Source of the DNA: a virus | Length of the DNA: 38,326 nucleotides | Reading direction: 5' to 3' (one strand) | Virus record (IMG/VR): IMGVR_UViG_3300020471_000696 | Coordinates: 1 to 38,326 of that record | In this document: one piece after another, positions 3,875 through 24,684 of the stretch | How positions within the stretch are numbered: the stretch's first letter is position 1 | How the letters are laid out: every line of letters begins with the position of its first letter | The notes under the pieces: generated by a model | Told to the model about the DNA's origin: nothing | Databases searched by the model: none | The model's input: the letters and a program-made list of their open reading frames with translations, nothing else | Made by a program: the position numbers and the translations under genes

Positions 3875-4167
3875 TATCTTATTGCGTCAGCTATATGTAA
3901 GTTGCCTGTTGACCCACTTAACGACTTAACTGCTATTTTAGAGCCTACTGGAATTACTAAATACTCAATCGTAAATGCAGGTAAGACTGCACTAGAGTTT
4001 ACCGCAGTTGGATTAAGTCCTATTTCGATTAGACAATCGCAAGTTGGAATGACTCTGTAGTGATTAAGTGAGTTTGTTAGTTGGGGTGATTGTGCAGATG
4101 ATGCACCGATTGCTACAGTTTGATTGTTTGCTAAACCAAATGCAGTAGGATAACCATATTTTGCCAT
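3874..4167 (-). CDS. Decoration-like head protein, paralog 2 (97 aa)
   Basis: This short, mostly beta-predicted protein shares a pattern with the upstream 89-aa product: SAQS near the start, an I-IG-NPTA motif in the middle (IGLNPTAV, residues about 49-56), then a hydrophobic PAFTIEYL strand and a GSKIAV strand. The neighbour has IGANPTAT, PAKTEFFL and TEKVAV at matching spacing. Two tandem short beta-proteins immediately after the major capsid gene are typical of capsid decoration or head-fibre proteins. The duplication is visible; the decoration role is inferred from position. It starts on the last base of the preceding stop. Confidence 0.65.
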   Translation of the reverse strand: MAKYGYPTAFGLANNQTVAIGASSAQSPQLTNSLNHYRVIPTCDCLIEIGLNPTAVNSSAVLPAFTIEYLVIPVGSKIAVKSLSGSTGNLHIADAIR

Positions 4168-4436
4168 TAGAATGTTACTCCAGTTATGAAAGCCAAGCCA
4201 CTACCTGTTGTTGTTCTGACCGCAACTTTCTCTGTAGGTTTAACACCTAAAAAAAACTCAGTCTTAGCAGGTATGAAAGCATCGTTTGTTGTTGCAGTAG
4301 GGTTAGCACCTATTACAAAATGACTATCAACTGTTGTTACCAGTCTGATTGTAAAGATACCATCGTCTATTGCAGATGATTGTGCTGATGTTGCTGATGT
4401 TGTTACTTTTTCAGTAGATATATCTCTGTAGTTCAT
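4167..4436 (-). CDS. Decoration-like head protein, paralog 1 (89 aa)
   Basis: This is the first gene after the major capsid gene, preceded by the strong stem-loop at 4451-4476 and the Shine-Dalgarno GAGAGGAA. It begins MNYRDISTEKVTTSATSAQS and carries the IGANPTAT and KVAVRTTTGSG segments, which line up with the next gene's IGLNPTAV and KIAVKSLSGST. The composition is beta-rich with no cysteine. It is probably a minor or decoration capsid protein. Its own stem-loop plus ribosome-binding site suggests that its translation or mRNA stability is set separately from the capsid gene. Confidence 0.65.
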   Translation of the reverse strand: MNYRDISTEKVTTSATSAQSSAIDDGIFTIRLVTTVDSHFVIGANPTATTNDAFIPAKTEFFLGVKPTEKVAVRTTTGSGLAFITGVTF

Positions 4437-4450
4437 AAATTCCTCTCAGT

Positions 4451-4476
4451 GCATAGGGTGGTTACCCACCCTATGC
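4451..4476 (-). promoter_or_regulatory. Intercistronic GTAA-tetraloop stem-loop upstream of the decoration genes
   Basis: A perfect 11-bp inverted repeat (GCATAGGGTGG / CCACCCTATGC) encloses four bases that read GTAA on the transcribed (minus) strand, a GNRA-type tetraloop. It lies between the major capsid stop and the Shine-Dalgarno GAGAGGAA of the next gene. There is no T-run after it, so a classical terminator is unlikely. It shares its GGGTGG-GTAA-CCACCC core with the stem-loops at 17736, 22745 and 23097. Likely roles are an mRNA stabiliser or an RNase processing site. Confidence 0.85.
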
Positions 4477-4490
4477 TAGTTAGATTACGA

Positions 4491-5450
4491 TTATGATAAA
4501 TCGTATATTCCACCATTACCTGCCTCGTTCTTGGCACATAATGACCACTCAGTAGTTAGTAAATACTGTCTGTTATCGCCAGTCTTTGCTAATTCCTCTA
4601 CTTTGTATGGTCTTAGTTCTGCCATTTCCCAAAGGCTATGGTCTATAACAAGTGCATCTCTTGCTCTCATGTGTCTTGCGGGTACCACGTTATAAGAGGC
4701 GAAATCGCCAATATAAACGTCGACGGCACCTACAATCGTTTTGTCAGGAGTCTGTACTTGCTTAGTAGCACCACCAGTAAATGATGTTGAGATAACTTGC
4801 TTGTTAGCTGAACCAACATAAATTGTGTCAGCATTACCGCCATTATCCCATACTGATTTACTTACTGCTTTAAGCAATGTTTCAGTCAACGCTCTTAGGT
4901 TTCCTGCTGATGCGTCTGTTCTCGCATTAGCACCCTCAAGAGCAGTTGGGTCAGCACCGCCTGTACCTGCACTGGTATTAGTACCTAACCAACAGTTAAT
5001 ACCTGCTGATTGTCTTGCAGTTGAGGCGTTACCTGCATTTTTAGCACCATTTTGAAAAATAGATGTTTCAATATCGTTTTTCAAAACTTTTGCGTTTTTT
5101 GCTAAAAGATATGCACTCATAGTTGCTAGACCTGCTGAGTCTACTGCATCTTGAGTACCAGTAACCGCAAATGATTTTGCACTGATTTGTGTGTTGTTGT
5201 TTAGTCTTGTTACATCTGACTGAGAGGTTGCAGAATATACCTCACCCTCAAGCTGAGCATTGTTTGCTACAGGTGATGCGAGTGAGTCCTTTAACCACTC
5301 AACCTTTGTAGAAGATGTAGAGACTTTTTTGATACTTGACATAAAAGGAGTCTCAAAAGGTGAGATGTTAGAAATAACATCGCCTAGATTTTCCTTAGTT
5401 GTTTTGCCTGAAGTATCAAATGATGTTTTACTGTTTGATAATAAAGCCAT
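4491..5450 (-). CDS. Major capsid protein, SU10/DUF5309 type (319 aa)
   Basis: The 319-residue protein starts MALLSNSKTSFDTSGKTTKE and then has the family-typical LGDVISNISPFETPFMSSI (residues about 22-40), followed by a K-rich E-loop region with WLKDSL. This N-terminal block is characteristic of HK97-fold major capsid proteins of the SU10 (DUF5309) group. Length and position (scaffold upstream, decoration-like genes downstream) fit. It would form the icosahedral shell. An AAAGGTAAAGAACG ribosome-binding region precedes the ATG. No other candidate capsid gene exists in the window. Confidence 0.9.
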   Translation of the reverse strand: MALLSNSKTSFDTSGKTTKENLGDVISNISPFETPFMSSIKKVSTSSTKVEWLKDSLASPVANNAQLEGEVYSATSQSDVTRLNNNTQISAKSFAVTGTQDAVDSAGLATMSAYLLAKNAKVLKNDIETSIFQNGAKNAGNASTARQSAGINCWLGTNTSAGTGGADPTALEGANARTDASAGNLRALTETLLKAVSKSVWDNGGNADTIYVGSANKQVISTSFTGGATKQVQTPDKTIVGAVDVYIGDFASYNVVPARHMRARDALVIDHSLWEMAELRPYKVEELAKTGDNRQYLLTTEWSLCAKNEAGNGGIYDLS

Positions 5451-6510: not shown

Positions 6511-6532
6511 GAGTTGTCCTTTCATATTCAGC

Positions 6533-6548
6533 TTTGCATAATTGCAAA
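6533..6548 (-). promoter_or_regulatory. Small stem-loop upstream of the scaffold ribosome-binding site
   Basis: The inverted repeat TTTGCA-TAAT-TGCAAA (6-bp stem, 4-base loop) lies in the 79-base gap between the 89-aa gene and the scaffold start, 12-15 bases before AAAGGA. It is weaker than the GTAA family and could be chance in AT-rich DNA, but its position just ahead of a ribosome-binding site matches those elements. Confidence 0.4.
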
Positions 6549-6589
6549 ACCGATTCTAGAGTTCCATATCTGGTTGACCCTAAGAATAC

Positions 6590-14012: not shown

Positions 14013-14167
14013 CGCTTATCCAATCCATGAAAGAACCATAAATCACTAATTTGTGTCCTCATTATCTCGTACTCGTCATGCCACCAATTCTGGTCAACAA
14101 TCTTTTCATTTTGGTAAAAGATAGCGATTTGCAGGCAAATTATGATAGTTAGTAAAAATTTATTCAT
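14009..14167 (-). CDS. Small N-terminally anchored protein (52 aa)
   Basis: It is joined by ATGA overlaps to the genes on both sides. The product has an N-terminal hydrophobic helix (FLLTIIICLQIAIFY, residues about 4-18) and a polar, Trp-rich remainder (VDQNWWHDEYEIMRT) predicted to lie outside the membrane core. No family is recognised. The double overlap supports that it is translated. Confidence 0.6.
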   Translation of the reverse strand: MNKFLLTIIICLQIAIFYQNEKIVDQNWWHDEYEIMRTQISDLWFFHGLDKR

Positions 14168-14985
14168 ACACCGCACATTCCCTCACATTCATTTTCAAAG
14201 AGATTGATTTGTGCATCTTTACTTTCAAAATCTATTTCATCAATCGGCTTACATTCTCTATGTAAATATATTTTATCATCAGGCTTTTTTGTTGCAGTTC
14301 TAATTGCCTTATCTAACTTAATAACATTTTCCCATTCTTCTTTATCTTGTTTAATCTCTAACCATTCCTCATTGCTATGAAAAGGGCAAAAAGTGCATGC
14401 ACTACGAGGTGGTTTAGGATAATTATTTTCTTTTAACCAATTTAAACAATCTTGCCTGCTCATTTTTAAATCTATTAAAGGATATTCATTAGTTATGTAT
14501 TTTACTGGGTTTGTTTTCATTCGAGTTGCCTCATCTTTACTAATACCCATAATCATTGTGACCTGAGTATTTTTCTTAACTCTCTCGTATTTTTTTAAAC
14601 CTAATAATTTTCTTACTGTTTTGTTAATGACTCTAATTTTATAATCATTTGTGCATTGTCTGCGTAATAAACCTTTTTTTCCTGTTTCATGATTTTTTGT
14701 AAAAACAGGAATAGTAACAAAACGATACTTTGTGTTTATTGCATTGATTGTATCTTCATACAGATTACCTTTGCTTTCATGCAAAATTGGAAATGAAACT
14801 TGGTTTTGTAACCAAGTAAGCCATTCCATAACTTTTTTTGGCTCACTTTTTGTATCAGCAAATATACAGTGTGTTGGTTTTTTTATTATGCCACGCTCCA
14901 TCATTAAAGCTACAGTGCTACTCTGTACCCCTGCACCAAGACTTAGTATTCTTAAATTATTTGTTTCACTCAAGTTCAACCTCAA
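14164..14985 (-). CDS. PAPS reductase-like PP-loop protein (273 aa)
   Basis: The N-terminal PP-loop ILSLGAGVQSSTVALMM (residues about 13-29) binds ATP in adenine-nucleotide alpha-hydrolases; CIFADTKSEP follows. Cysteine motifs RRQCTNDYKI, SACTFCPFHSNEEW, LHREC and the C-terminal CEGMCGV match the phage family annotated as phosphoadenosine phosphosulfate reductase. It is distantly related to DndC of DNA phosphorothioation, and the cysteines may hold an iron-sulfur cluster. The true substrate is not established. It overlaps the methyltransferase gene by 20 bases, so a joint role in DNA modification is plausible but inferred. Confidence 0.82.
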   Translation of the reverse strand: MRLNLSETNNLRILSLGAGVQSSTVALMMERGIIKKPTHCIFADTKSEPKKVMEWLTWLQNQVSFPILHESKGNLYEDTINAINTKYRFVTIPVFTKNHETGKKGLLRRQCTNDYKIRVINKTVRKLLGLKKYERVKKNTQVTMIMGISKDEATRMKTNPVKYITNEYPLIDLKMSRQDCLNWLKENNYPKPPRSACTFCPFHSNEEWLEIKQDKEEWENVIKLDKAIRTATKKPDDKIYLHRECKPIDEIDFESKDAQINLFENECEGMCGV

Positions 14986-17366: not shown

Positions 17367-17723
17367 TTATTTCACCTTTCTTAAGTGTCTTTGAGTTGTG
17401 CAGACTTGCCATTTGCTAAATGAGTGACCAGTGTTTTCATTAATCACCTTACTAGCAACTTTACCTACATCAGAGTAAACAGTCTGCTCTTTAAAATTTT
17501 CTCTAATGTATTTTATCAATGCACCTTTAGTCATTTTACTATCTTTAGTTATGACCTCAGATAACATTTCTAAAACTCGTTCTTTAGTTTGTTCTCTGTT
17601 AAGACCACCTTTTCTAAGTCTTGCAAAGCCTTCCCATAAATCATGTTTTTTACAATAAGCTAATTGTTTTTCGTCATAAAGAATGTTGCCATCTTTATCT
17701 CTTATCCAAATATCGTTTTCCAT
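17367..17723 (-). CDS. Early protein of unknown function (118 aa)
   Basis: The 118-residue protein begins MENDIWIRDKDGNILYDEKQ, with a helical basic middle (LRKGGLNREQTKERVLEMLS) and a C-terminal region GKVASKVINENTGHSFSKWQ. It is translated from GAGAGGAAATAA-ATG directly after the GTAA stem-loop at 17736-17755. I do not recognise a family. The second gene of the leftward early operon. Confidence 0.65.
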   Translation of the reverse strand: MENDIWIRDKDGNILYDEKQLAYCKKHDLWEGFARLRKGGLNREQTKERVLEMLSEVITKDSKMTKGALIKYIRENFKEQTVYSDVGKVASKVINENTGHSFSKWQVCTTQRHLRKVK

Positions 17724-17735
17724 TTATTTCCTCTC

Positions 17736-17755
17736 TGGGTGGCTTACGCCACCCA
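17736..17755 (-). promoter_or_regulatory. GTAA-tetraloop stem-loop ahead of the 118-aa gene
   Basis: An 8-bp stem TGGGTGGC/GCCACCCA with a GTAA loop on the transcribed strand, followed 2-8 bases later by GAGAGGAA and ATG. It is one of four elements with the same core; here and at 4451 the downstream GAGAGGAA is the same too. Confidence 0.88.
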
Positions 17756-17764
17756 TTTGTTTTT

Positions 17765-18085
17765 TTATCTTAAATATGCAGGGCTATATAAGTTGCCCTC
17801 ATTTACTGCATAGCCATCTAACAAATTACCTCTTGCGTGTTTTGCAGGTCTGTTCCATGCCTCAGCTTTAAGGACATTTCCATCAACATCTACAAAACCC
17901 CATGCACTTTGTTGAGCAACACCTTTCATAATAATTTTGATATACTTTCTACCTACTTTGTAGATGTACTCAGTTTTGTTATTTACATGAATAGGATTGT
18001 CAGTGTCCCATTTTTTAGCGTGTAACTCTGTCAACTGATTTGTTAGAGCCTCAACCTTTGTGATTATTGTGTTATTTGTTTTCAT
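17765..18085 (-). CDS. Conserved phage early protein (106 aa)
   Basis: This is the first gene of the leftward operon. The C-terminal half carries AWGFVDVDGNVLKAEAWNRP followed by AKHARGNLLDG, a conserved signature (FVD-x-G-x-x-x-KA-x-x-W-x-x-PAK-x-ARGN) that I know from many unrelated phages, without established function. The middle (YIYKVGRKYIKIIMKGVAQQ) is basic and beta-like. AAAGGA precedes the ATG. The promoter at 18128-18155 probably drives it. Confidence 0.78.
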   Translation of the reverse strand: MKTNNTIITKVEALTNQLTELHAKKWDTDNPIHVNNKTEYIYKVGRKYIKIIMKGVAQQSAWGFVDVDGNVLKAEAWNRPAKHARGNLLDGYAVNEGNLYSPAYLR

Positions 18086-18127
18086 TTTTTTGTTTCCTTT
18101 CTTTTTTTGTTTTTTCTTTATGTCTTT

Positions 18128-18155
18128 ATTATAAAGATGTAGCCAAATAACTCAA
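18128..18155 (-). promoter_or_regulatory. Leftward sigma70-like promoter
   Basis: On the minus strand TTGAGT (18155-18150) is followed after 16 bases by a consensus TATAAT (18133-18128). Start of transcription would fall near 18120, 35 bases before the first leftward gene. The spacer contains the 15-base element at 18138-18152 that is shared with the 22.3-kb promoter. Confidence 0.7.
18138..18152. promoter_or_regulatory. Candidate operator, copy 1 (TGTAGCCAAATAACT)
   Basis: Exact 15-base match to 22324-22338. It lies between the -10 and -35 of the leftward promoter and reaches into the -35 box, where a bound repressor would block RNA polymerase. A shorter copy (TGTAGCCAA) is at 22347-22355. 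Confidence 0.65.
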
Positions 18156-18207
18156 GTCTTTTATGCACTAAAAACGCTAGGTATAGCCTCAAAAATTAAC
18201 TTTTTTT

Positions 18208-18236
18208 TTGTCATAATGTCAGATTATTAATATTTT
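18208..18236 (+). promoter_or_regulatory. Rightward sigma70-like promoter
   Basis: TTGTCA (18208-18213), a 17-base spacer and TATTTT (18231-18236) fit a moderate sigma70 promoter for the rightward recombination operon; a start near 18243 leaves a leader of about 20 bases. A second TTGTCA at 18247 is an alternative. The 177 bases between 18086 and 18262 hold only these control elements. Confidence 0.5.
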
Positions 18237-18262
18237 TGATGATTTGTTGTCATTTTTGACTA

Positions 18263-18514
18263 ATGTTAATGTTAATGACGAATCAACTAAATGAAATAAT
18301 TAAATTTTCCTTTATGAAAGTTAGAGGTTGGTTTGTTGTTAATTTGCTTACAAACAAACGACTCCTTTCTTTTGGTTTACCAAGACCTAGACTCCTGCGA
18401 GGTTTGTTTGGATTCATATTACTCGCAGGAGTCGTAAAGAGATATTTCACTTTGTTTGGGTGGCTTGTCATCTTTGCTTTAATAATTTTAATAACAACAT
18501 TAATAATTTTATGA
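18263..18514 (+). CDS. Putative small membrane protein at the head of the rightward operon (83 aa)
   Basis: The N-terminus has several in-frame Met codons (MLMLMTNQLNE), so the start is uncertain. Two hydrophobic stretches lie in the second half (LLRGLFGFILLAGVV and YFTLFGWLVIFALIILITTL). Its stop overlaps the ATG of the next small membrane gene (ATGA), which in turn couples to the exonuclease gene; that chain is the main evidence that it is real. No ribosome-binding site is obvious. Part of it is the strong inverted repeat at 18390-18433, so the RNA structure rather than the peptide could be what is conserved. Confidence 0.45.
   Translation: MLMLMTNQLNEIIKFSFMKVRGWFVVNLLTNKRLLSFGLPRPRLLRGLFGFILLAGVVKRYFTLFGWLVIFALIILITTLIIL
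18351..18433 (+). promoter_or_regulatory. Inverted repeat and possible H-type pseudoknot
   Basis: A perfect 12-bp repeat, GACTCCTGCGAG (18390-18401) with CTCGCAGGAGTC (18422-18433), has a 20-base loop. Inside the loop GTTTGTTTG (18402-18410) is complementary to CAAACAAAC (18351-18359). The two stems interleave as in an H-type pseudoknot with directly abutting helices. CGACTCC at 18359-18365 offers a third competing arm. No T-run follows, so this is not a simple terminator. It could be a translational control element or, as DNA, a recombination or binding site. Confidence 0.6.
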
Positions 18515-18648
18515 ATAAATTTTCTTGGCTTGAAATTATAGAAATCATGATAAAAATGTTTTTCTGTATTGCTATTCTACCTGCTAGTTATTTCTTTCTG
18601 ATTATGTTGATTGAAATACAAAATGTCATGGTAGGGTCAATCGTCTAG
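18511..18648 (+). CDS. Small single-span membrane protein (45 aa)
   Basis: The product MNKFSWLEIIEIMIKM is followed by one transmembrane helix (FFCIAILPASYFFLIMLIEI) and a short tail. I use the ATG at 18511, which overlaps the previous stop as ATGA, rather than an in-frame ATG further upstream. Its TAG shares a base with the GTG start of the exonuclease gene. Function unknown. Confidence 0.5.
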   Translation: MNKFSWLEIIEIMIKMFFCIAILPASYFFLIMLIEIQNVMVGSIV

Positions 18649-19646
18649 TGCAATTAAGAGAGCAAAACAAAAAGTTTGTTGAGTTAAAGTCAAAGATTAC
18701 GACTACCAGAGACTCAGAGCAAAAAGCAATCATTGATAGTTTTAATAAGCAAAATAATTTTGTTACTGGTGAGGAATGGTTGAAACATGGCATCGAATGG
18801 CAATCAAACTCAAGTGCATCATTACCAAACTTTTTATATGGCTTTCAATATTTATTATATCCTGAGTTAAAGAAATATCTTATGCACTCAGCTAATGTAA
18901 AAATGGGTCAGTGGATTGGTGAATTTTTAGGTCATGTTTATGAGGGCAAACTGAACATTGATGATGCCTATAATTTTATTGAAGATATGGCAAAACATTA
19001 TGAGCCAAATAAGTTTGCAAATGCTGATAACGAAAAGATGGAAAAGTTTTTAACTTTAGTAAAGCCATATCTCACTGAGTTGATGTATCAAGTTCAGCAA
19101 GTTGCAGGAAACAATAAAGTAGAATTTGAAAAAAAAATTGTTTTATATCTTAAAGGATTAAATGTACCGATTACTGGTTGGCTTGATGTAGCGATATTAG
19201 ATAAAAACGATAAGTTGATAAACTGGATAGAAATAAAAACTAAATACCCTATGCCTGATGGGTATTACAAAAAGAATACTGCTGACAATAAAATAGGTGA
19301 TAGGAAATGGAAAAACCCAAGTCCTGTCACTGAACCTCACCAATATTATGAAACTCAAATGGCAATTTATACTCAGGCAACAGGTATGTTAGGTCATCAA
19401 ATAATCTGTACTCCCAATGCAACAACTCTTTTAAGACCTGAGGAACATGAGAAATTACAAAAGCCATATTTAGATAAAATATTAAAGCAGGTGTATCAAA
19501 AGCTAATGGTGAGGCAAAACTTATTAAAGCTATGCAATGACGCAACAACTTTTATGCGTTTGTCTGAGCCTGACTTTAATACATTTAAAATCAAAGACTG
19601 GAATCCAGAATACAAACAATTATTGAAAGGTGTATATGACTACTGA
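18648..19646 (+). CDS. RecB/Cas4-like PD-(D/E)XK exonuclease (332 aa)
   Basis: The nuclease core is clear. H96 lies in GEFLGHVYEG, D180 in GWLDVAIL, E195-I-K197 in NWIEIKTKY and Q237-x-x-x-Y241 in QMAIYTQ, giving the full H, D, ExK, QxxxY set of RecB-type nucleases. It starts with GTG at 18648 (TAGTG junction). The gene lies directly before the ERF annealing protein, so it probably resects double-strand ends to give single strands for annealing, as lambda Exo does for Beta. All catalytic residues are present. Confidence 0.85.
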   Translation: MQLREQNKKFVELKSKITTTRDSEQKAIIDSFNKQNNFVTGEEWLKHGIEWQSNSSASLPNFLYGFQYLLYPELKKYLMHSANVKMGQWIGEFLGHVYEGKLNIDDAYNFIEDMAKHYEPNKFANADNEKMEKFLTLVKPYLTELMYQVQQVAGNNKVEFEKKIVLYLKGLNVPITGWLDVAILDKNDKLINWIEIKTKYPMPDGYYKKNTADNKIGDRKWKNPSPVTEPHQYYETQMAIYTQATGMLGHQIICTPNATTLLRPEEHEKLQKPYLDKILKQVYQKLMVRQNLLKLCNDATTFMRLSEPDFNTFKIKDWNPEYKQLLKGVYDY

Positions 19647-20163
19647 GAAAAAACCAAAAACTAAGCCTGAACCTAAAATTGATAATTCAATGTTGCTGAA
19701 TTTTAAAATGCTACAGGCACAAAGAGAAATTGAGGCATCAAAAACAAAGGTCGCTAACTATCAGGCATTTGAGTACAACTATTTGCTACCTAAAATTTTA
19801 GAGGTTACAAACAAACTTAATCTTAGAATAAAGCCAACTTTTGACATGGCTATCAATGAGGGTAAGCCAGTAATAAGTTGTAAGGTTGATGTTATTAATC
19901 TCGATGTTTTAATCACTAAAAAAACCAGTGATGGTGAGCAAACATATTACGAAAGTGAAATACATGGCGTTTATACAGTTGTTGGTGATTTAAGTCGTAA
20001 TCCAAAGATTGAGTGCGGTCAGCTTTACACTTACGCATACAAAAACGCATTACTAAAAATATTCAATATTAATGAGGGTACAAGTGACCCTGATACTCAG
20101 GCTATTCAAAAAATACAAAAAGGTGGCTTGAACATTAATAATGATGCAATCCCTAACTTATAA
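19636..20163 (+). CDS. erf: ERF-family single-strand annealing protein (175 aa)
   Basis: ATG at 19636 is preceded by GAAAGG at 5 bases; a GTG two codons upstream lies inside that ribosome-binding site. Residues about 32-62 (NYQAFEYNYLLPKILEVTNK) and the later GQLYTYAYKNALLKIFNINE followed by GTSDPD match the ERF fold's start and its Y-x-Y-x-x-KYALL-x-x-x-f-x-I segment. ERF proteins pair complementary single strands during recombination and circularisation. It overlaps the exonuclease gene by 11 bases, forming a Red-like pair. Confidence 0.82.
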   Translation: MTTEKKPKTKPEPKIDNSMLLNFKMLQAQREIEASKTKVANYQAFEYNYLLPKILEVTNKLNLRIKPTFDMAINEGKPVISCKVDVINLDVLITKKTSDGEQTYYESEIHGVYTVVGDLSRNPKIECGQLYTYAYKNALLKIFNINEGTSDPDTQAIQKIQKGGLNINNDAIPNL

Positions 20164-20178
20164 CGAAAGGTAAAAATT

Positions 20179-20481
20179 ATGGCAGATTGGGATAACATAA
20201 CGCAAGGTCAAACATTTAAGTTTGGCAAGAATGAGCGTAAGGCACAAGCATTATCAGAGGGCAAGGATAACGCTGATAAGTACCCTGACTACACAACTAC
20301 TTTTAAGGGTGAACCTACCACTAATGTAAAAGTGCCTGCTGACTTATTGGAGCATATAAAAAACTCTGATGGTTGGTGTCAAATGTCTATTCGTATTAAC
20401 AGAGAGACTCAGGAAATAAGTCTTAATGTTAAGGGCAAGTATGAATCAAAAAAGAAAACTGAGGAAACACCGCCCTTTTAA
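20179..20481 (+). CDS. Small SSB-like protein with an SSB-type C-terminal tip (100 aa)
   Basis: The protein has a lysine-rich start (NITQGQTFKFGKNERKAQAL), a beta-rich middle (GWCQMSIRINRETQEISLNV) and ends in acidic EETPPF. Bacterial SSB ends in DDDIPF, the tip that recruits repair enzymes; the final acidic-Pro-Phe here is a close analogue. Following an exonuclease and an annealing protein, a single-strand-binding role is likely. The OB fold itself is not certain from sequence. GAAAGG precedes the ATG; the stop shares a base with the next ATG. Confidence 0.6.
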   Translation: MADWDNITQGQTFKFGKNERKAQALSEGKDNADKYPDYTTTFKGEPTTNVKVPADLLEHIKNSDGWCQMSIRINRETQEISLNVKGKYESKKKTEETPPF

Positions 20482-20768
20482 TGATTTACGCTACTGAAAT
20501 ATTACACAAGGCAGGAAACCTTATTACAGGTAGTCGTAAAGAAACGCATGGTGATTTTGTAGAAAATCATAAGAACATTGCGAGATTATGGTCAGCTTAC
20601 TTGGAAATCAAAATATCCCCTATTCAAGTGCTGACCATGATGGCGTTGCTTAAAATCGCCAGAACAAAGACAGGTAAGTATGACCCTGATAACAACATAG
20701 ATGCTATAGGCTATCTTGCGTTAGATGGTCAATTAAGAAGTAAATTAGAGCAAGAAAATGACGAGTGA
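20481..20768 (+). CDS. DUF6378-like protein (95 aa)
   Basis: The segment HGDFVENHKNIARLWSAYLE, then SPIQVLTMMALLKIARTKTG and DNNIDAIGYLALDGQL, follows the conserved pattern of a common phage family (I recall it as DUF6378): HGDxxxN, LW, MMALLKIAR, D-N-x-x-D-x-x-GY. Its all-helical layout resembles MazG-type folds, but no nucleotide-hydrolase motif can be claimed. It starts on the last base of the SSB-like gene's stop. Confidence 0.78.
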   Translation: MIYATEILHKAGNLITGSRKETHGDFVENHKNIARLWSAYLEIKISPIQVLTMMALLKIARTKTGKYDPDNNIDAIGYLALDGQLRSKLEQENDE

Positions 20769-21261
20769 AAAGAAAATATCCTACATAGATGTATCGAAAC
20801 AAGATGATTGGGCTAGTGTTAATCTATACCTTAATCATAAGTCTAATGGTCAGATGAGGAAAAATGCACACTTAATTAAAACTTATGTTGGTACTCAGGG
20901 TGGTGCTAAATACAAAGTTCATGCAGGCTTTGGTTGGTCAAAGTTAAATAAAAAGAAACAACCTGTAATTGATGAGGTGATGATAAAGGTAAGACCAGAG
21001 AACAGTATGGTCAGTGCGATGGTGAAAGAGAGCATGGTCAGTTTTAACTCAGCTATAAATGATAAGAATACTTTTGCTGACCAGTGCAATGAAATCAGTA
21101 AGGGTGGGTTTTTAGGTATTGTCTGCAATTATTTTTTAGAAAATATGGAAAAGATAGTCGATTACACAAGTGATTTTAGAATATCAACTGAGTTGCAGTT
21201 TGAACCGCAAAATAGATATGGGTCAGTCAATAAGGATTTAGAGAGATTGAATGATGCTTAG
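20758..21261 (+). CDS. Recombination-operon protein of unknown function (167 aa)
   Basis: The 167-residue soluble protein begins MTSEKKISYIDVSKQDDWAS, has KYKVHAGFGWSKLNKKKQPV in the middle, and a helical region rich in Met and Ser (NSMVSAMVKESMVSFNSAIN). It overlaps the DUF6378-like gene by 11 bases and the next gene by 11. I do not recognise it. It may take part in recombination or DNA handling, judged only by operon context. Confidence 0.68.
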   Translation: MTSEKKISYIDVSKQDDWASVNLYLNHKSNGQMRKNAHLIKTYVGTQGGAKYKVHAGFGWSKLNKKKQPVIDEVMIKVRPENSMVSAMVKESMVSFNSAINDKNTFADQCNEISKGGFLGIVCNYFLENMEKIVDYTSDFRISTELQFEPQNRYGSVNKDLERLNDA

Positions 21262-21646
21262 TAGATTACAAAAATTTATAAAATCATTATTTATCAAACA
21301 TGAGGTTATCAACCAACCTCAAGAAACTTACGAGGAAAGTGAGAAAAGATTAAATAAAAAGTACTGGCGTTTATATCCTCACTGGCGATTTATTACTGAC
21401 CTTTTTTTTGAAATGAAACAGTATGACTCTATTGATGTAAAAGAATTACACAAGGCATGGAAAGCAACTGGCGAAAAAGGTAAAAGACAAAGAGAGTTTA
21501 CATATAAAGGCAAAACATGGTTAAGAGTTGCAATTAAAACTTATAGTCGTAGTAAAAAATCATCAGCTTGGGAAGTTTATTTTGAATGTAAGGAAACAGG
21601 CGAGGAAATATATCAATCAATGTCACCTTACATGAGATATTATTGA
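21251..21646 (+). CDS. Unknown basic protein (131 aa)
   Basis: It begins MMLSRLQKFIKSLFIKHEVI (the second Met may be the start), with an amphipathic N-terminal helix, then aromatic segments (KYWRLYPHWRFITDLFFEMK) and a basic, beta-like C-terminus (GKTWLRVAIKTYSRSKKSSA). Highly basic and aromatic. No family is recognised. Confidence 0.65.
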   Translation: MMLSRLQKFIKSLFIKHEVINQPQETYEESEKRLNKKYWRLYPHWRFITDLFFEMKQYDSIDVKELHKAWKATGEKGKRQREFTYKGKTWLRVAIKTYSRSKKSSAWEVYFECKETGEEIYQSMSPYMRYY

Positions 21647-21652
21647 TGCCTA

Positions 21653-22030
21653 ATGACTGATGGTTGGCAAAAATTATTGAATCAAAGTGGATATGAATTA
21701 AATCTTGCAGATATTACCAGTTATAACAAGATGGTTAAGAAAAGAAAGATGGAAAAAGAAAAGAAAAAATACAAGTACAAAGGGTTTGCTTTTGATAGAG
21801 ATGGTTACGATAAATTTAATACTAAATTAAGTGAGTGTTTAAAATTAAGAAATACCCCAATTAAGAAAAAAGCAGATGAGGCAATGAAACTCATGCGTGA
21901 GGGTGGTCTTACTTTTAATATAAAGAAACAACACTTTTTTAATGAGTCTGACTTGCTCGTAGAGATGACTGATGTTTACCTTAAAATATTGCGTAAACAC
22001 GCTGATACAATGCCACCAAAGAGAAGATAA
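21653..22030 (+). CDS. Unknown lysine-rich protein (125 aa)
   Basis: The 125-residue protein has a long lysine-rich helical stretch (NKMVKKRKMEKEKKKYKYKG) followed by FAFDRDGYDKFNTKLSECLK and a basic C-terminus (TMPPKRR). It may bind nucleic acid. Its TAA overlaps the ATG of the zinc-finger gene. No family is recognised. Confidence 0.65.
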   Translation: MTDGWQKLLNQSGYELNLADITSYNKMVKKRKMEKEKKKYKYKGFAFDRDGYDKFNTKLSECLKLRNTPIKKKADEAMKLMREGGLTFNIKKQHFFNESDLLVEMTDVYLKILRKHADTMPPKRR

Positions 22031-22191
22031 TGCCATTTGTAGAGCAGGATAAAATATGTCAAAGATGCGGTGACTCTTTTCGTATTTACTCACCTCAACA
22101 ACTGCAAAAAAAATACTGCAATAATGCGATTTGTTCTGACAAGAATCGGTGGCTTGCATACCAAAGAAAACTACAAAAAAAGACCGCATAA
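22030..22191 (+). CDS. Small zinc-finger protein (53 aa)
   Basis: A 53-codon gene is joined to its upstream neighbour by TAATG. The product has ICQRCGDSF (Cys-x2-Cys) and KYCNNAICSDKNR (Cys-x4-Cys), a four-cysteine treble-clef or zinc-ribbon pattern of a type common in small phage DNA-binding or HNH-related proteins. No HNH catalytic residues are seen. It is the last gene before the 203-base gap with the 22.3-kb promoter. Confidence 0.75.
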   Translation: MPFVEQDKICQRCGDSFRIYSPQQLQKKYCNNAICSDKNRWLAYQRKLQKKTA

Positions 22192-22314
22192 AGCCTATTT
22201 TGACAGGGTGACAAATATTTTTTTTGAATCAATAAACTTTTAAAAAAAACCTACTATTTTAGCCATTTTTTTACCTAATTATCAAGCCAAACAAAAATAA
22301 AAGATTTGTGCCTA

Positions 22315-22343
22315 TTGACAATGTGTAGCCAAATAACTATATT
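22315..22343 (+). promoter_or_regulatory. Strong sigma70 promoter for the integrase operon
   Basis: A consensus TTGACA (22315-22320), a 17-base spacer and TATATT (22338-22343) lie upstream of four genes ending in the integrase. The spacer carries the 15-base element 22324-22338 and the start region carries its shorter copy at 22347-22355. The remaining sequence 22192-22314 is AT-rich and shows no gene. Confidence 0.8.
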
Positions 22344-22355
22344 AATTGTAGCCAA
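22324..22355. promoter_or_regulatory. Candidate operators, copies 2 and 3
   Basis: TGTAGCCAAATAACT at 22324-22338 is identical to 18138-18152; TGTAGCCAA recurs at 22347-22355, 23 bases on. One covers the promoter spacer and the first base of the -10, the other lies at the expected transcription start. Adjacent sites on one face of the DNA are typical of cooperative repressor binding. Confidence 0.6.
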
Positions 22356-22394
22356 TGACAATTAAGTGATTGGCATAACTGAAAGGTAAAAAAT

Positions 22395-22754
22395 ATGAAT
22401 AAAGCAGAAAAATTTTGGAATGATAACCAAAATATCGTTGAGAAAGGTGAGAGTATTTTTCGCAAGTTTCACGATGAATTTATAACACCAAAAGCAAGGC
22501 AAGCAATGAACAAAGATGCAGATGTTTGCATACATTGTGGCAAAACTCATGGCAACTTAAATGGTTCTGTTGAGGTTGATTTAGATGATAATAATAATTC
22601 ATCTTATCACAAAGATTTTACAGATAGTGTCACTGGTTACATGGCTATGGGTAAGCATTGCATGAAAAATTTAGGAATATGGAAAGATGCAAAAGCATAC
22701 ATAGACCTTAGAAAAAAATACGAACAATTAAAAAAAGATGAGGTGGTGGCGTAA
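22395..22754 (+). CDS. Phage protein with Cys/His metal-binding motif (119 aa)
   Basis: The helical N-terminus (MNKAEKFWNDNQNIVEKGES) leads to VCIHCGKTHG (Cys-x2-Cys-x4-His), an acidic loop (VEVDLDDNNNSS), then GYMAMGKHCMKNLG with another His-Cys, so a zinc site is likely. GAAAGG lies 8 bases before the ATG. It is the first gene after the 22.3-kb promoter. The stop codon sits in the loop of the stem-loop at 22745-22760. Function unknown. Confidence 0.72.
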   Translation: MNKAEKFWNDNQNIVEKGESIFRKFHDEFITPKARQAMNKDADVCIHCGKTHGNLNGSVEVDLDDNNNSSYHKDFTDSVTGYMAMGKHCMKNLGIWKDAKAYIDLRKKYEQLKKDEVVA

Positions 22755-22760
22755 GCCACC
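22745..22760 (+). promoter_or_regulatory. GTAA-tetraloop stem-loop overlapping a stop codon
   Basis: GGTGGC-GTAA-GCCACC: a 6-bp stem whose loop holds the TAA of the 119-aa gene, followed by AGGAAAGG and the ATG of the next gene. Terminating ribosomes would melt it, which could link translation of the two genes. Confidence 0.85.
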
Positions 22761-22781
22761 CCTCAGGAAAGGAAAAAAAAT

Positions 22782-23078
22782 ATGATTACTTTTGATTACG
22801 AATTTTACAAAAAGAAAAAGTCAGATGGTGAGGTTGTAGAGTACAAAGAACATAAATGTAATGAATTTGATACGTTTGCAGATGTTTTTGATTTTGTAAA
22901 AGTAAAACACTTTATGAAAGATAAATACGCAACTGGTGACTTTTATTATTCTGTTACTGTTACTAGCAGAAAATATCAATTTGATAAGAACAGTGGTTCA
23001 AAAAATTGGTTTCCTGATATTACAAAAGAACGAATTTACATAAATAATAATGAGATACAGGTGGCTAAATATGTTTAA
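22782..23078 (+). CDS. Early protein of unknown function (98 aa)
   Basis: The 98-residue protein has a charged N-terminus (MITFDYEFYKKKKSDGEVVE), an aromatic middle (DTFADVFDFVKVKHFMKDKY) and a beta-rich C-terminus (YYSVTVTSRKYQFDKN). AGGAAAGG lies at good spacing before the ATG, right behind a GTAA stem-loop. No family is recognised. Confidence 0.68.
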   Translation: MITFDYEFYKKKKSDGEVVEYKEHKCNEFDTFADVFDFVKVKHFMKDKYATGDFYYSVTVTSRKYQFDKNSGSKNWFPDITKERIYINNNEIQVAKYV

Positions 23079-23096
23079 TAAAAATATAAGATACAA

Positions 23097-23118
23097 AAGG
23101 GTGGCGTAAGCCACCCTT
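23097..23118 (+). promoter_or_regulatory. GTAA-tetraloop stem-loop ahead of the 83-aa gene
   Basis: AAGGGTGGC-GTAA-GCCACCCTT, a 9-bp stem in the 59-base gap between genes, followed by AAGAAAGGA and ATG. It shares its 16-base core with the elements at 17736 and 22745. Confidence 0.88.
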
Positions 23119-23137: not shown

Positions 23138-23389
23138 ATGAGCAATGTAAAGATGATAAAAGACTTACAAAATTTCCATCAAGACATCATAAAAAAGCAA
23201 ACTGAAATGTCTAAAATGTTTGCCTCGTCTATGAAAAAGGCAATGTGTAACTATATGGGTAGGCAAGTTGAACAAGATATTTTTAACAAACTTACAGATG
23301 GTGAAACAATAACTATAGATAACTTACATAAATTAATAAATGTGAGCATTGATATGGTAATTAATAAAATTGATAATGAGGATTTATGA
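23138..23389 (+). CDS. Small helical protein coupled to the integrase gene (83 aa)
   Basis: The 83-residue, all-helical, Met- and Lys-rich protein (MSNVKMIKDLQNFHQDIIKK) has an acidic end (NKIDNEDL). Its stop overlaps the integrase ATG (ATGATGG). A gene in this position often encodes a recombination directionality factor (excisionase), but the sequence shows no helix-turn-helix, so that remains a guess. Confidence 0.68.
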   Translation: MSNVKMIKDLQNFHQDIIKKQTEMSKMFASSMKKAMCNYMGRQVEQDIFNKLTDGETITIDNLHKLINVSIDMVINKIDNEDL

Positions 23390-24684
23390 TGGATAACGAG
23401 GCAACAATAATAACTCAATATCAAAAACTTGGCGGTAAGATAGCAATACATAAAGATAAGTGGCACGCTGAACATAGGGATATTGAGGATAAGAGGGTAA
23501 GATTAAATCTTGCTACAAAAGAAAAGTTAGTAAAAAAGATTGGTGAGATAATTAATAATCATGTCAATGGCAATAAACAAATTAAAGAGGACATAAAAAA
23601 CACAAATGCTTTATCTGCATTAATTGATAGACAAGATTATTTTATGGAGCAAAGAGATAATGCAAAGTTAGAAAAGCATAAAAAAACATATACTAGGAAA
23701 ATGAATGATTGCAAAAGACTAGCCAAGTACATAAGAGAGCATGGCGGTTATCTTGGTACTAAGTATTTAAGACAATGGGATTGGCAAGACGCTCATTTGT
23801 TAGTTCAGGTTATTAATAAAGGCACTCGAAAAGCATCAGCAAATAGTCGTAAAAAATGTTTTTATGAAATGCAGGAATGTTTTAACAAAGGTTTAGTTGA
23901 TGGTTATATCGGTGGTACAACTAATTTACTGACTGAGTATAGAAAAGCCAACCCTGTTGATGAGTTTACATCTGACCCAAATAAAAGAAAAAACCAACTT
24001 AACCGATTGATGAGAGTATGGGATATTCAATTTATGAAAAAATATATTGAGTCAATTAATGACCCAATATTTAAAATGGCTAATAGGTTTGAGGCATATT
24101 CTGCATTGCGTGTCAGTGAGTTGTTTGCATTGAGAAAGTCAGATGTTGTAATTAAGAGCAATGAACCTAGTTATGTTATTGTCAGAGGTCAGCTTACAAA
24201 TACTGGTGATTGGATTGAGGAAAATAAAACATTAGCAGGTCATTATAGAACAGTTACTATTGGCACTGGTTTAGCAAAAGATTTACAAACATATATGCAA
24301 GATGTGTTAGATAATCCGCATTATAAAAAAGATGCACTGATTGGAAAAGATGCTGATGATAAGCCTGTATATGGTGGGGATTTATTATTTCCTCAGGTCA
24401 AGGATAATACAATGAAAGGATATGGATATAACACTCTAAATAAGAAATTTAAGAGGTATATGGTGGGTGAGTTTGCTATGCCAGAAAATTTGTTAGTTCA
24501 TTTTTTCAGACATTGGGTTACTACGATGTGGGCTAGGCATAAAATATATGATGTAAATGAGGCGTGTTATATGTTGGGTCATAATAGCATTAAGACCACG
24601 CAAAGCATATATACAACGATTATGTCTAATAGAAACTATGAGGGTATAGACAAGGATTTATTTTTAGAAAATTATTACTACTAA
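23386..24684 (+). CDS. int: Tyrosine site-specific recombinase (integrase, 432 aa)
   Basis: The C-terminal catalytic domain has R242 in SALRVSELFALR, the H372-x-x-R375 box in HFFRHWVTT, H399 in MLGHNS and the nucleophile Y409 in TQSIYTTIM. This is the full active-site series apart from the lysine, which I cannot place. The N-terminal 220 residues contain an arm-binding/core-binding-like helical region rich in Lys. It should catalyse integration of the phage genome into a host site, which makes the phage probably temperate. No tRNA fragment or obvious attP core was found nearby. The gene ends in a 4-base overlap with the convergent minus-strand gene. Confidence 0.92.
   Translation: MMDNEATIITQYQKLGGKIAIHKDKWHAEHRDIEDKRVRLNLATKEKLVKKIGEIINNHVNGNKQIKEDIKNTNALSALIDRQDYFMEQRDNAKLEKHKKTYTRKMNDCKRLAKYIREHGGYLGTKYLRQWDWQDAHLLVQVINKGTRKASANSRKKCFYEMQECFNKGLVDGYIGGTTNLLTEYRKANPVDEFTSDPNKRKNQLNRLMRVWDIQFMKKYIESINDPIFKMANRFEAYSALRVSELFALRKSDVVIKSNEPSYVIVRGQLTNTGDWIEENKTLAGHYRTVTIGTGLAKDLQTYMQDVLDNPHYKKDALIGKDADDKPVYGGDLLFPQVKDNTMKGYGYNTLNKKFKRYMVGEFAMPENLLVHFFRHWVTTMWARHKIYDVNEACYMLGHNSIKTTQSIYTTIMSNRNYEGIDKDLFLENYYY

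Follow-up and report, generated by a model that had tools for sequence, protein, structure and literature searches.

The window analyzed here, a viral contig taken at its whole length of 38,326 nt (38.3 kb, 35% G+C), carries four short stem-loops with a GTAA loop next to Shine-Dalgarno (SD) sequences, which raises the question of whether they are copies of a single element and what such hairpins might do at gene junctions. The contig encodes an SU10-type portal and capsid, a tail-collar protein, a nuclease-ERF pair and a tyrosine integrase, and the closest named capsids, including those of Pelagibacter phage HTVC106P and Methylophilales phage Venkman, are less than 60% identical. All four stem-loops had been noticed in a preliminary description and are indeed present on the transcribed strand, two in each orientation, among the strongest hairpins of the 38 kb:

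4451-4476, minus strand: post-capsid hairpin GCATAGGGTGG-GTAA-CCACCCTATGC, 11 bp with a GNRA loop, 4-5 nt before the SD GAGAGG
17736-17755, minus strand: junction hairpin TGGGTGGC-GTAA-GCCACCCA, 8 bp, 2 nt before the SD GAGAGGAA of gene 17367-17723
22740-22764 (core 22745-22760), plus strand: stop-in-loop hairpin GAGG[T]GGTGGC-GTAA-GCCACC-CCTC, with the SD AGGAAAGG directly behind
23097-23118, plus strand: junction hairpin AAGGGTGGC-GTAA-GCCACCCTT, 9 bp, 3 nt before the SD AGAAAGGA of gene 23138-23389

Folded alone, the regions reach -23.0 (4451, z = -4.88), -16.7 (17736, z = -6.08), -20.7 (22745, z = -5.60) and -17.6 kcal/mol (23097, z = -5.70), and none of the shuffled controls equals any of them. 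The pattern GGGTGGN6CCACCC, with up to two mismatches, occurs three times in the window against 0.12 expected. The common core described previously, GGGTGG-(C)-GTAA-(G)-CCACCC, holds overall, except that the 4451 copy lacks the loop-closing C-G pair and reads GGGTGG-GTAA-CCACCC. Likewise, the stem lengths of 11, 8 and 9 bp given for 4451, 17736 and 23097 are right, whereas the 6 bp given for 22745 fall short of a total of about 10 bp, as this hairpin extends beyond a bulged U (GAGG[U]GGUGGC-GUAA-GCCACC-CCUC). The SDs start 2-6 bases past the stems, inside the proposed range of about 2-15 bases; gene predictions and SD calls were made with simple scripts, and starts may be misplaced. Hairpins of -11 kcal/mol or stronger within 60 nt upstream were found at only five of the approximately 59 gene starts of the window, so the feature is selective. 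Searches of the window returned no Rfam covariance-model match above the gathering threshold and no tRNA genes, and six related loci gave a single chance Rfam match (E = 4). As reported, the sense strand of all four copies is free of a T-run (behind 4451, by inspection), and no sense-strand terminator-like site was detected at 17736, 22745 or 23097. The antisense strand of 17736 does have a T-run, but no gene is read in that direction.

The 4451 copy lies between the following genes:

4491-5450, minus strand: major capsid protein of the SU10 type (PF17236, E = 7.7e-81; phrog_1328), upstream of the hairpin
4167-4436, minus strand: 89-aa ORF with no family match, downstream of the hairpin

Behind the major capsid gene, 15 of 17 homologous phages have a hairpin that reaches -11 kcal/mol or better, while only about 6-8% of other genes reach -12 to -10 kcal/mol or better. 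The homolog of the 89-aa ORF in locus L210 likewise comes after a capsid gene and a hairpin. Thus, the preliminary description, which was to be abandoned if related phages had no stem-loops at these junctions, survives this comparison. Covariation analysis of 11 homologs, ranging from the window to PaP3 and phiM5, revealed double-sided changes in all seven pairs, with 100% of cells paired and a score of 1.018 versus 0.184 for shuffled alignments, the pairing being inflated because the hairpin taken for each homolog was the best in its stretch. The capsid-junction hairpins have GNRA or UUCG loops (GCAA in L121/L125) on many different stems, the stop codon stands just ahead of the stem and not in the loop, and some relatives, in the Manatee Spring phages, are terminators with T-runs. 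Since the stems at this junction are so diverse, the likeness of 4451 to the other three copies is at least partly convergent. Judging from the sequences, there are two kinds of hairpin, a post-capsid kind (4451) and a widespread kind found at the boundaries of exchangeable genes (the other three). The idea of one dispersed repeat behind all four copies, spread through the genome as previously proposed, was dropped after the capsid-junction comparison.

The main feature of the widespread kind had been overlooked: the GUAA loop usually contains the UAA stop of the gene upstream, as in the 22745 copy, whose loop UAA (22752-22754) terminates the following gene.

22395-22754, plus strand: 119-aa gene ending in KKDEVVA, with its final codons forming the 5′ arm and its TAA (22752-22754) in the loop; the 203-nt gap ahead of it holds a promoter-like site at 22315-22343

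In the three other copies (4451, 17736 and 23097) the upstream stop is located 20-30 bases ahead of the loop, and the loop UAA of 23097 also closes a 12-codon frame, MFNKNIRYKRVA (23071-23109), in a different frame. Of 48 hairpins in AT-rich viral contigs that have a GUAA or AUAA loop and an adjacent SD, 40, including 22745, hold the upstream stop in the loop (36/43 for GTAA and 4/5 for ATAA). This fraction overstates the effect, because many TAA triplets in front of an SD are stops in any case (13 of 23 GGCGTAAGCC matches without further pairing). By contrast, in all 16 hairpins with TTCG, GAAA or GCAA loops the stop is ahead of the stem. In the GUAA class, then, the loop usually holds the upstream UAA stop, and the last codons of the upstream gene are often GUG GCG (Val-Ala), which form the 5′ arm. 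To avoid the bias of pattern-based fetching, we used 12 loci collected by nuclease homology without reference to hairpins. There, 9 of 156 distinct genes, which represent only about six independent families, have their stop wholly within a hairpin loop, compared to a mean of 0.125 and a maximum of 2 per control offset. A phage-wide excess of stops in loops is not evident once the sites obtained with the fetch pattern are set aside. Some of these nine genes belong to convergent pairs, so that the arrangement is also found where no SD lies downstream (L430/L432); in L430/L431 a single loop contains both the TAA of one gene and the TAG of the gene opposing it, and the convergent-pair hairpin carries a T-run in L432-L434. 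Hence, SD adjacency, which the first reading treated as primary, is real, but the link to the stop codon is tighter and persists between convergent genes where no SD is present. No report of a stop codon placed in this way was found in the literature searched, most of it outside subscription journals.

A stop in the loop with an SD close behind fits a translational coupling or initiation element, in which the terminating ribosome would open the hairpin and reinitiation at the next gene, or SD binding, would depend on it. Junction structures of the T4 gene 25/26 type offer a parallel, and SD accessibility shifts with the state of the arms. However, almost every copy leaves the SD outside its stem, convergent genes that have no downstream SD are capped by the hairpin too (L430/L432), and the capsid and UUCG copies have their stop before the stem; we consider coupling rather doubtful.

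The hairpins bear marks of selection at the RNA level. On the SD strand of AT-rich viral contigs, hairpins with the GGTGGC core have GTAA loops 39 times and the complementary TTAC never, and TTCG 8 times versus none for CGAA. The exact 16-mer GGTGGCGTAAGCCACC occurs in viral contigs, and in the AT-rich ones most of the copies listed precede an SD and a start codon on the GTAA strand. A loop-blind scan (GGTGGCNNNNGCCACC followed by AGGA and ATG) retrieved mainly GTAA (19), TTCG (19), ATAA (6) and GAAA (4), all of them classic stable tetraloops. When only GGCGTAAGCC before an SD was fixed, stems of at least 6 bp were found in 37 of 86 matches, against approximately 4-5 expected if further pairs were random, as estimated from (6/16)^3, and the cores included GGTGGC, GGCGGC, GGAGGC and GGGGGC; the fold of this element of about 18 nt is therefore kept while its core sequence is free to change. 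The encoded protein ends in WGVA in L055 as well as in L429/L430, yet the Val codon has changed synonymously from GTG to GTT and the noncoding arm has been adjusted accordingly (GGGTGGC/GCCACCC versus GGGTTGC/GCAACCC). A second gene of the same family, in L157, has GGAGGC-ATAA-GCCTCC. In arm alignment A5 two rows (x and y) are misregistered or copies of the generic pattern, and its counts serve only as support. Together, the GTAA/TTCG strand asymmetry and the compensation indicate selection as RNA, and the proposal of a portable RNA-level module gains support from the strand-specific loops, the compensated arms and the retention of the hairpin as neighbors change.

Because the 5′ arm is translated, ten unrelated families of the lineage end in VA. 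Conceivably, it is the C-terminal peptide (EVA, GVA) that is conserved, for example as a degradation tag, with the hairpin as a by-product, and many upstream proteins do end in VA (21 of 409 lineage genes). Yet the noncoding arm compensates synonymous changes, hairpin-ended genes may end in GVD or EEA, and the capsid junction pairs without any such peptide, all of which makes this explanation extremely improbable.

Around the three copies of the widespread kind, neighboring genes are exchanged among relatives; the region includes the following genes:

17765-18085, minus strand: 106-aa DUF7717 gene (PF24835, E = 3e-10), which opens the leftward early operon and lies upstream of hairpin 17736
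17367-17723, minus strand: 118-aa gene (fam7), downstream of hairpin 17736; its L055 homolog has the same hairpin and a different upstream gene
18648-19646: putative nuclease gene, assigned by sequence inspection, with no Pfam or PHROG family matched
19630-20163: ERF gene, near the hairpin-bearing variable genes
22782-23078, plus strand: 98-aa gene, downstream of hairpin 22745; its L075/L425 homolog stands behind the same hairpin and another upstream gene
23138-23389, plus strand: 83-aa gene, downstream of hairpin 23097
23386-24684, plus strand: tyrosine integrase (PF00589, E = 9.9e-9; phrog_1), adjoining the hairpin-punctuated variable genes

Proteins flanking the hairpins fall into 43 upstream and 57 downstream clusters, and one upstream family precedes different downstream families, and vice versa. 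Comparison of syntenic L055, L425 and L426 showed that the genes between a conserved block and the integrase differ with hairpins standing between them, and so do the leftward operon start genes around theirs. Anti-restriction genes of the ArdC family end in the hairpin in four loci (L055, L102, L110 and L060). The preference for the first gene of an operon is modest (33/60 versus 630/2006). These observations could mean that AT-rich marine phages have a genome-wide punctuation system, in which accessory gene cassettes are regularly capped at their 3′ end by a stop-in-loop hairpin that doubles as an exchange joint, a reading we consider rather doubtful; if true, an anti-restriction or early regulator gene could be inserted into an operon together with its own RNA insulator.

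The joint might also operate on DNA alone, as a recombination or boundary sequence for accessory gene exchange similar to lambdoid boundary sequences or, loosely, integron attC. The same junction sequence does recur with different flanking genes (L032, L035, L074, L092, L097 and L099), breakpoints fall within the hairpin in L427, L431 and L150, and the ERF gene 19630-20163 and the integrase are nearby. Nevertheless, strand-specific GNRA/UUCG loops and compensated synonymous changes indicate RNA selection, and the stems (GGTGGC, GGTTGC, GGAGGC, GGCGGC) are too varied for a site-specific recombinase. We regard a DNA-level joint as quite improbable. An attC site is a hairpin with R′/R″ core boxes at the 3′ end of a cassette; in the present hairpins, which span 16-26 nt, no RYYYAAC/GTTRRRY boxes were seen by inspection.

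The explanation we prefer, giving it about an even chance, is that these are RNA punctuation hairpins at gene ends of polycistronic phage messages. Typically, the last upstream codons form the 5′ arm, the UAA is in a GUAA or AUAA tetraloop, the 3′ arm is noncoding and the SD follows 0-10 nt on; in the post-capsid copy the principle would be unchanged, except that the stop immediately precedes the stem. The hairpin would close once the last ribosome has gone, and from its position we infer effects on decay, termination and translation: the closed form may halt both 3′-to-5′ decay and the drift of post-termination ribosomes, so that the upstream gene would be expressed above, or independently of, the next one. 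By locking its own C-rich 3′ arm, the hairpin could leave the next SD free for fresh initiation. In folding calculations the mean unpaired probability of the SD was 0.66 for native sequences, 0.61 with the 5′ arm shuffled and 0.49 with the 3′ arm freed, a small and partly circular effect, as the stem is itself the sole reason for the C-richness of the 3′ arm. Addition of a U-run would turn the same element into a terminator, and the hairpin travels with exchangeable early and accessory genes. Counting against punctuation, the 5′-arm codons are kept and the 3′ arm is lost in L427/L431 (fam43) and L150 (fam99), so the hairpin is dispensable in places.

The kinship with terminators deserves separate consideration. 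Hairpins of the same kind with a T-run are found at operon ends in L432-L434, L436 and L114, and some post-capsid hairpins of Manatee Spring phages bear T-runs as well. The hairpins might accordingly all act as terminators of the intrinsic type, or as attenuators, built into the ends of genes; those inside operons would be weak or regulated and let some RNA polymerases pass. The likeness to intrinsic terminators is in the GC-rich stem, the stable loop and the U-run of some relatives; the window copies and most SD-adjacent copies have an SD in place of a downstream U-run, and the defining combination of GC-rich hairpin and U-run was found in L432-L434 and L436 and not in the window. This reading as terminators or attenuators seems unlikely. 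For RNase III, which at sites of the T7 type cuts a long stem, the 6-12 bp of the present hairpins are short. Taken together, the terminator kinship and the existence of known stabilizing stem-loops point, within the punctuation reading, to 3′-end protection or termination insulation. Measured examples of such stem-loops are the selective RNA processing and stabilization elements of the cip-cel operon (PMC10311766), which are likewise GC-rich, intergenic and within an operon and provide a model for the proposed role in stoichiometry; the abstract of that paper describes no stop codon in the loop, and the effects reported there were measured, whereas the present element is known from sequence.

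An operator recognized by an RNA-binding protein, encoded by either the phage or its host (cf. T4 gp43, MS2 coat protein, CsrA), through which downstream genes would be controlled jointly, could account for a GGUGG core and GUAA loop common to several junctions of one genome near the SD. Among relatives, however, the core varies and the loops alternate between GNRA and UUCG, and no candidate protein was identified, which leaves this option very improbable.

Among the closest known systems are the intercistronic CUUCGG hairpins found in T4 and further phages (Tuerk et al. 1988, cited in PMC8948821), one of which precedes the sigma gene of the phiEco32-like phage 7-11 (PMC8948821). They too are short hairpins of great stability with a tetraloop, most of them located between phage genes, and the loop-blind scan gave UUCG as often as GUAA at the same position; what differs is the GUAA/AUAA loop with its stop codon, repeated at junctions of exchangeable genes. 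Short stems closed on the RNA strand by UUCG or GNRA tetraloops, located mainly between genes although the 5′ arm is often coding, place the element by its sequence in the class of stable tetraloop intercistronic hairpins, of which the stop-in-loop form appears to be a new variant. Ribosome termination structures (RTS; Chemla et al. 2020, PMC7518266), proposed to be re-initiation insulators, share the link between stable mRNA structure and the stop codon, but in RTS the structure is immediately downstream of the stop, whereas 40 of 48 GTAA/ATAA copies of the pattern-fetched set contain the stop within the loop itself, and it precedes the stem only in the UUCG, GAAA, GCAA and capsid copies. Moreover, stop-proximal structure was reported to be depleted inside operons (PMC7518266), where most copies of the present element occur; this is the reverse of its placement and counts against punctuation. 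The SAS/ESAS of Cluster K mycobacteriophages (PMC3203893) are also short repeats that closely precede start codons, in phage genes that are non-structural and belong to different families. They consist of a 13-bp asymmetric sequence including the SD, with little support for an ESAS RNA hairpin, while pairing covaries here; the 13-bp GGGATAGGAGCCC was not found before the start codons concerned, where the window sequences differ.

A simple rule legible from sequence emerges for how compact phage genomes set the genes of one message apart: the stop codon doubles as the hairpin loop, with the next ribosome site immediately behind. If the punctuation function holds, it would explain how operons can take up variable genes, anti-restriction genes for instance, without upsetting their neighbors. 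The hairpin could then mark gene-exchange points in uncultured phages, serve as a compact part for building operons and provide a testable variant for the question of whether stop-linked mRNA structure insulates translation.

Among named phages, short searches yielded only weak partial matches to the same junctions; in pVp-JHP1101 the hairpin has a T-run, as a terminator, and in pEa_SNUABM_46 a hairpin stands before an SD. The 42 matches in host genomes are mostly a REP-like repeat of Planctomycetota and Verrucomicrobia in a different context. The same layout recurs in four alphaproteobacterial loci, from Hyphomonas and a related MAG, where the flanking genes both resemble ExbB/TolQ by inspection. 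Within the window, one more strong hairpin, the fifth at gene starts, has an unrelated sequence:

6528-6553, minus strand: 11-bp hairpin ahead of AAAGGA and the scaffold gene

It occupies the same position in L121/G003, with one loop base different.

Directly ahead of the Shine-Dalgarno (SD) sequence of the scaffold gene, the window has an 11-bp hairpin (6528-6553) which is unlike the GTAA type. This hairpin is retained in the related sequences L121/G003, and the scaffold-capsid pair is therefore flanked by hairpins. Elsewhere in the window, positions 14164-14985 hold a gene that matches phrog_424 (E = 7.9e-44) and resembles those for phosphoadenosine phosphosulfate reductase, carried here on a phage.

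The layout in which the stop codon of the upstream gene sits in the loop of a GTAA hairpin ahead of an SD is not restricted to phages, because strains of Hyphomonas, as well as an alphaproteobacterial MAG related to them, also have it between the genes of an ExbB/TolQ-like pair. In addition, a single hairpin loop holds both stop codons of a convergent gene pair at L430:2079-2098 and L432:5814. One member of the pair is a Cro/CI-type HTH protein (PF13443), and in L432-L434 the shared-loop hairpin is followed by a T-run.

Copies of the hairpin were also observed in other settings. In a second group of contigs, the exact 16-mer core lies at a gene end (..KVA*) and is followed by a further hairpin, CCCCGCAAGGGG, in place of the SD. 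Contigs of about 45% G+C carry a conserved copy, ATGGGGTGGCGTAAGCCACCCATAGTAACG, that does not adjoin an SD. Planctomycetota and Verrucomicrobia MAGs contain a dispersed REP-like repeat (GCCCGGAGGGCGACACAT...TTGCCGGTGGCGTAAGCCACCGGAA), the hairpin core of which is the 16-mer of the phage element; L288 has three copies within about 1.6 kb.

Loci carrying the hairpin variants
Stop-in-loop GTAA hairpin, alphaproteobacteria: L264, L267, L282, L298
16-mer followed by CCCCGCAAGGGG, among the matches listed: L017, L018, L024, L027, L038, L067, L081 and others
ATGGGGTGGCGTAAGCCACCCATAGTAACG, among the matches listed: L005, L034, L069, L083, L109, L116
REP-like repeat: L259, L260, L262, L263, L265, L266, L268, L269, L272-L275, L278, L280, L281, L286, L288, L290-L292, L294, L296, L300
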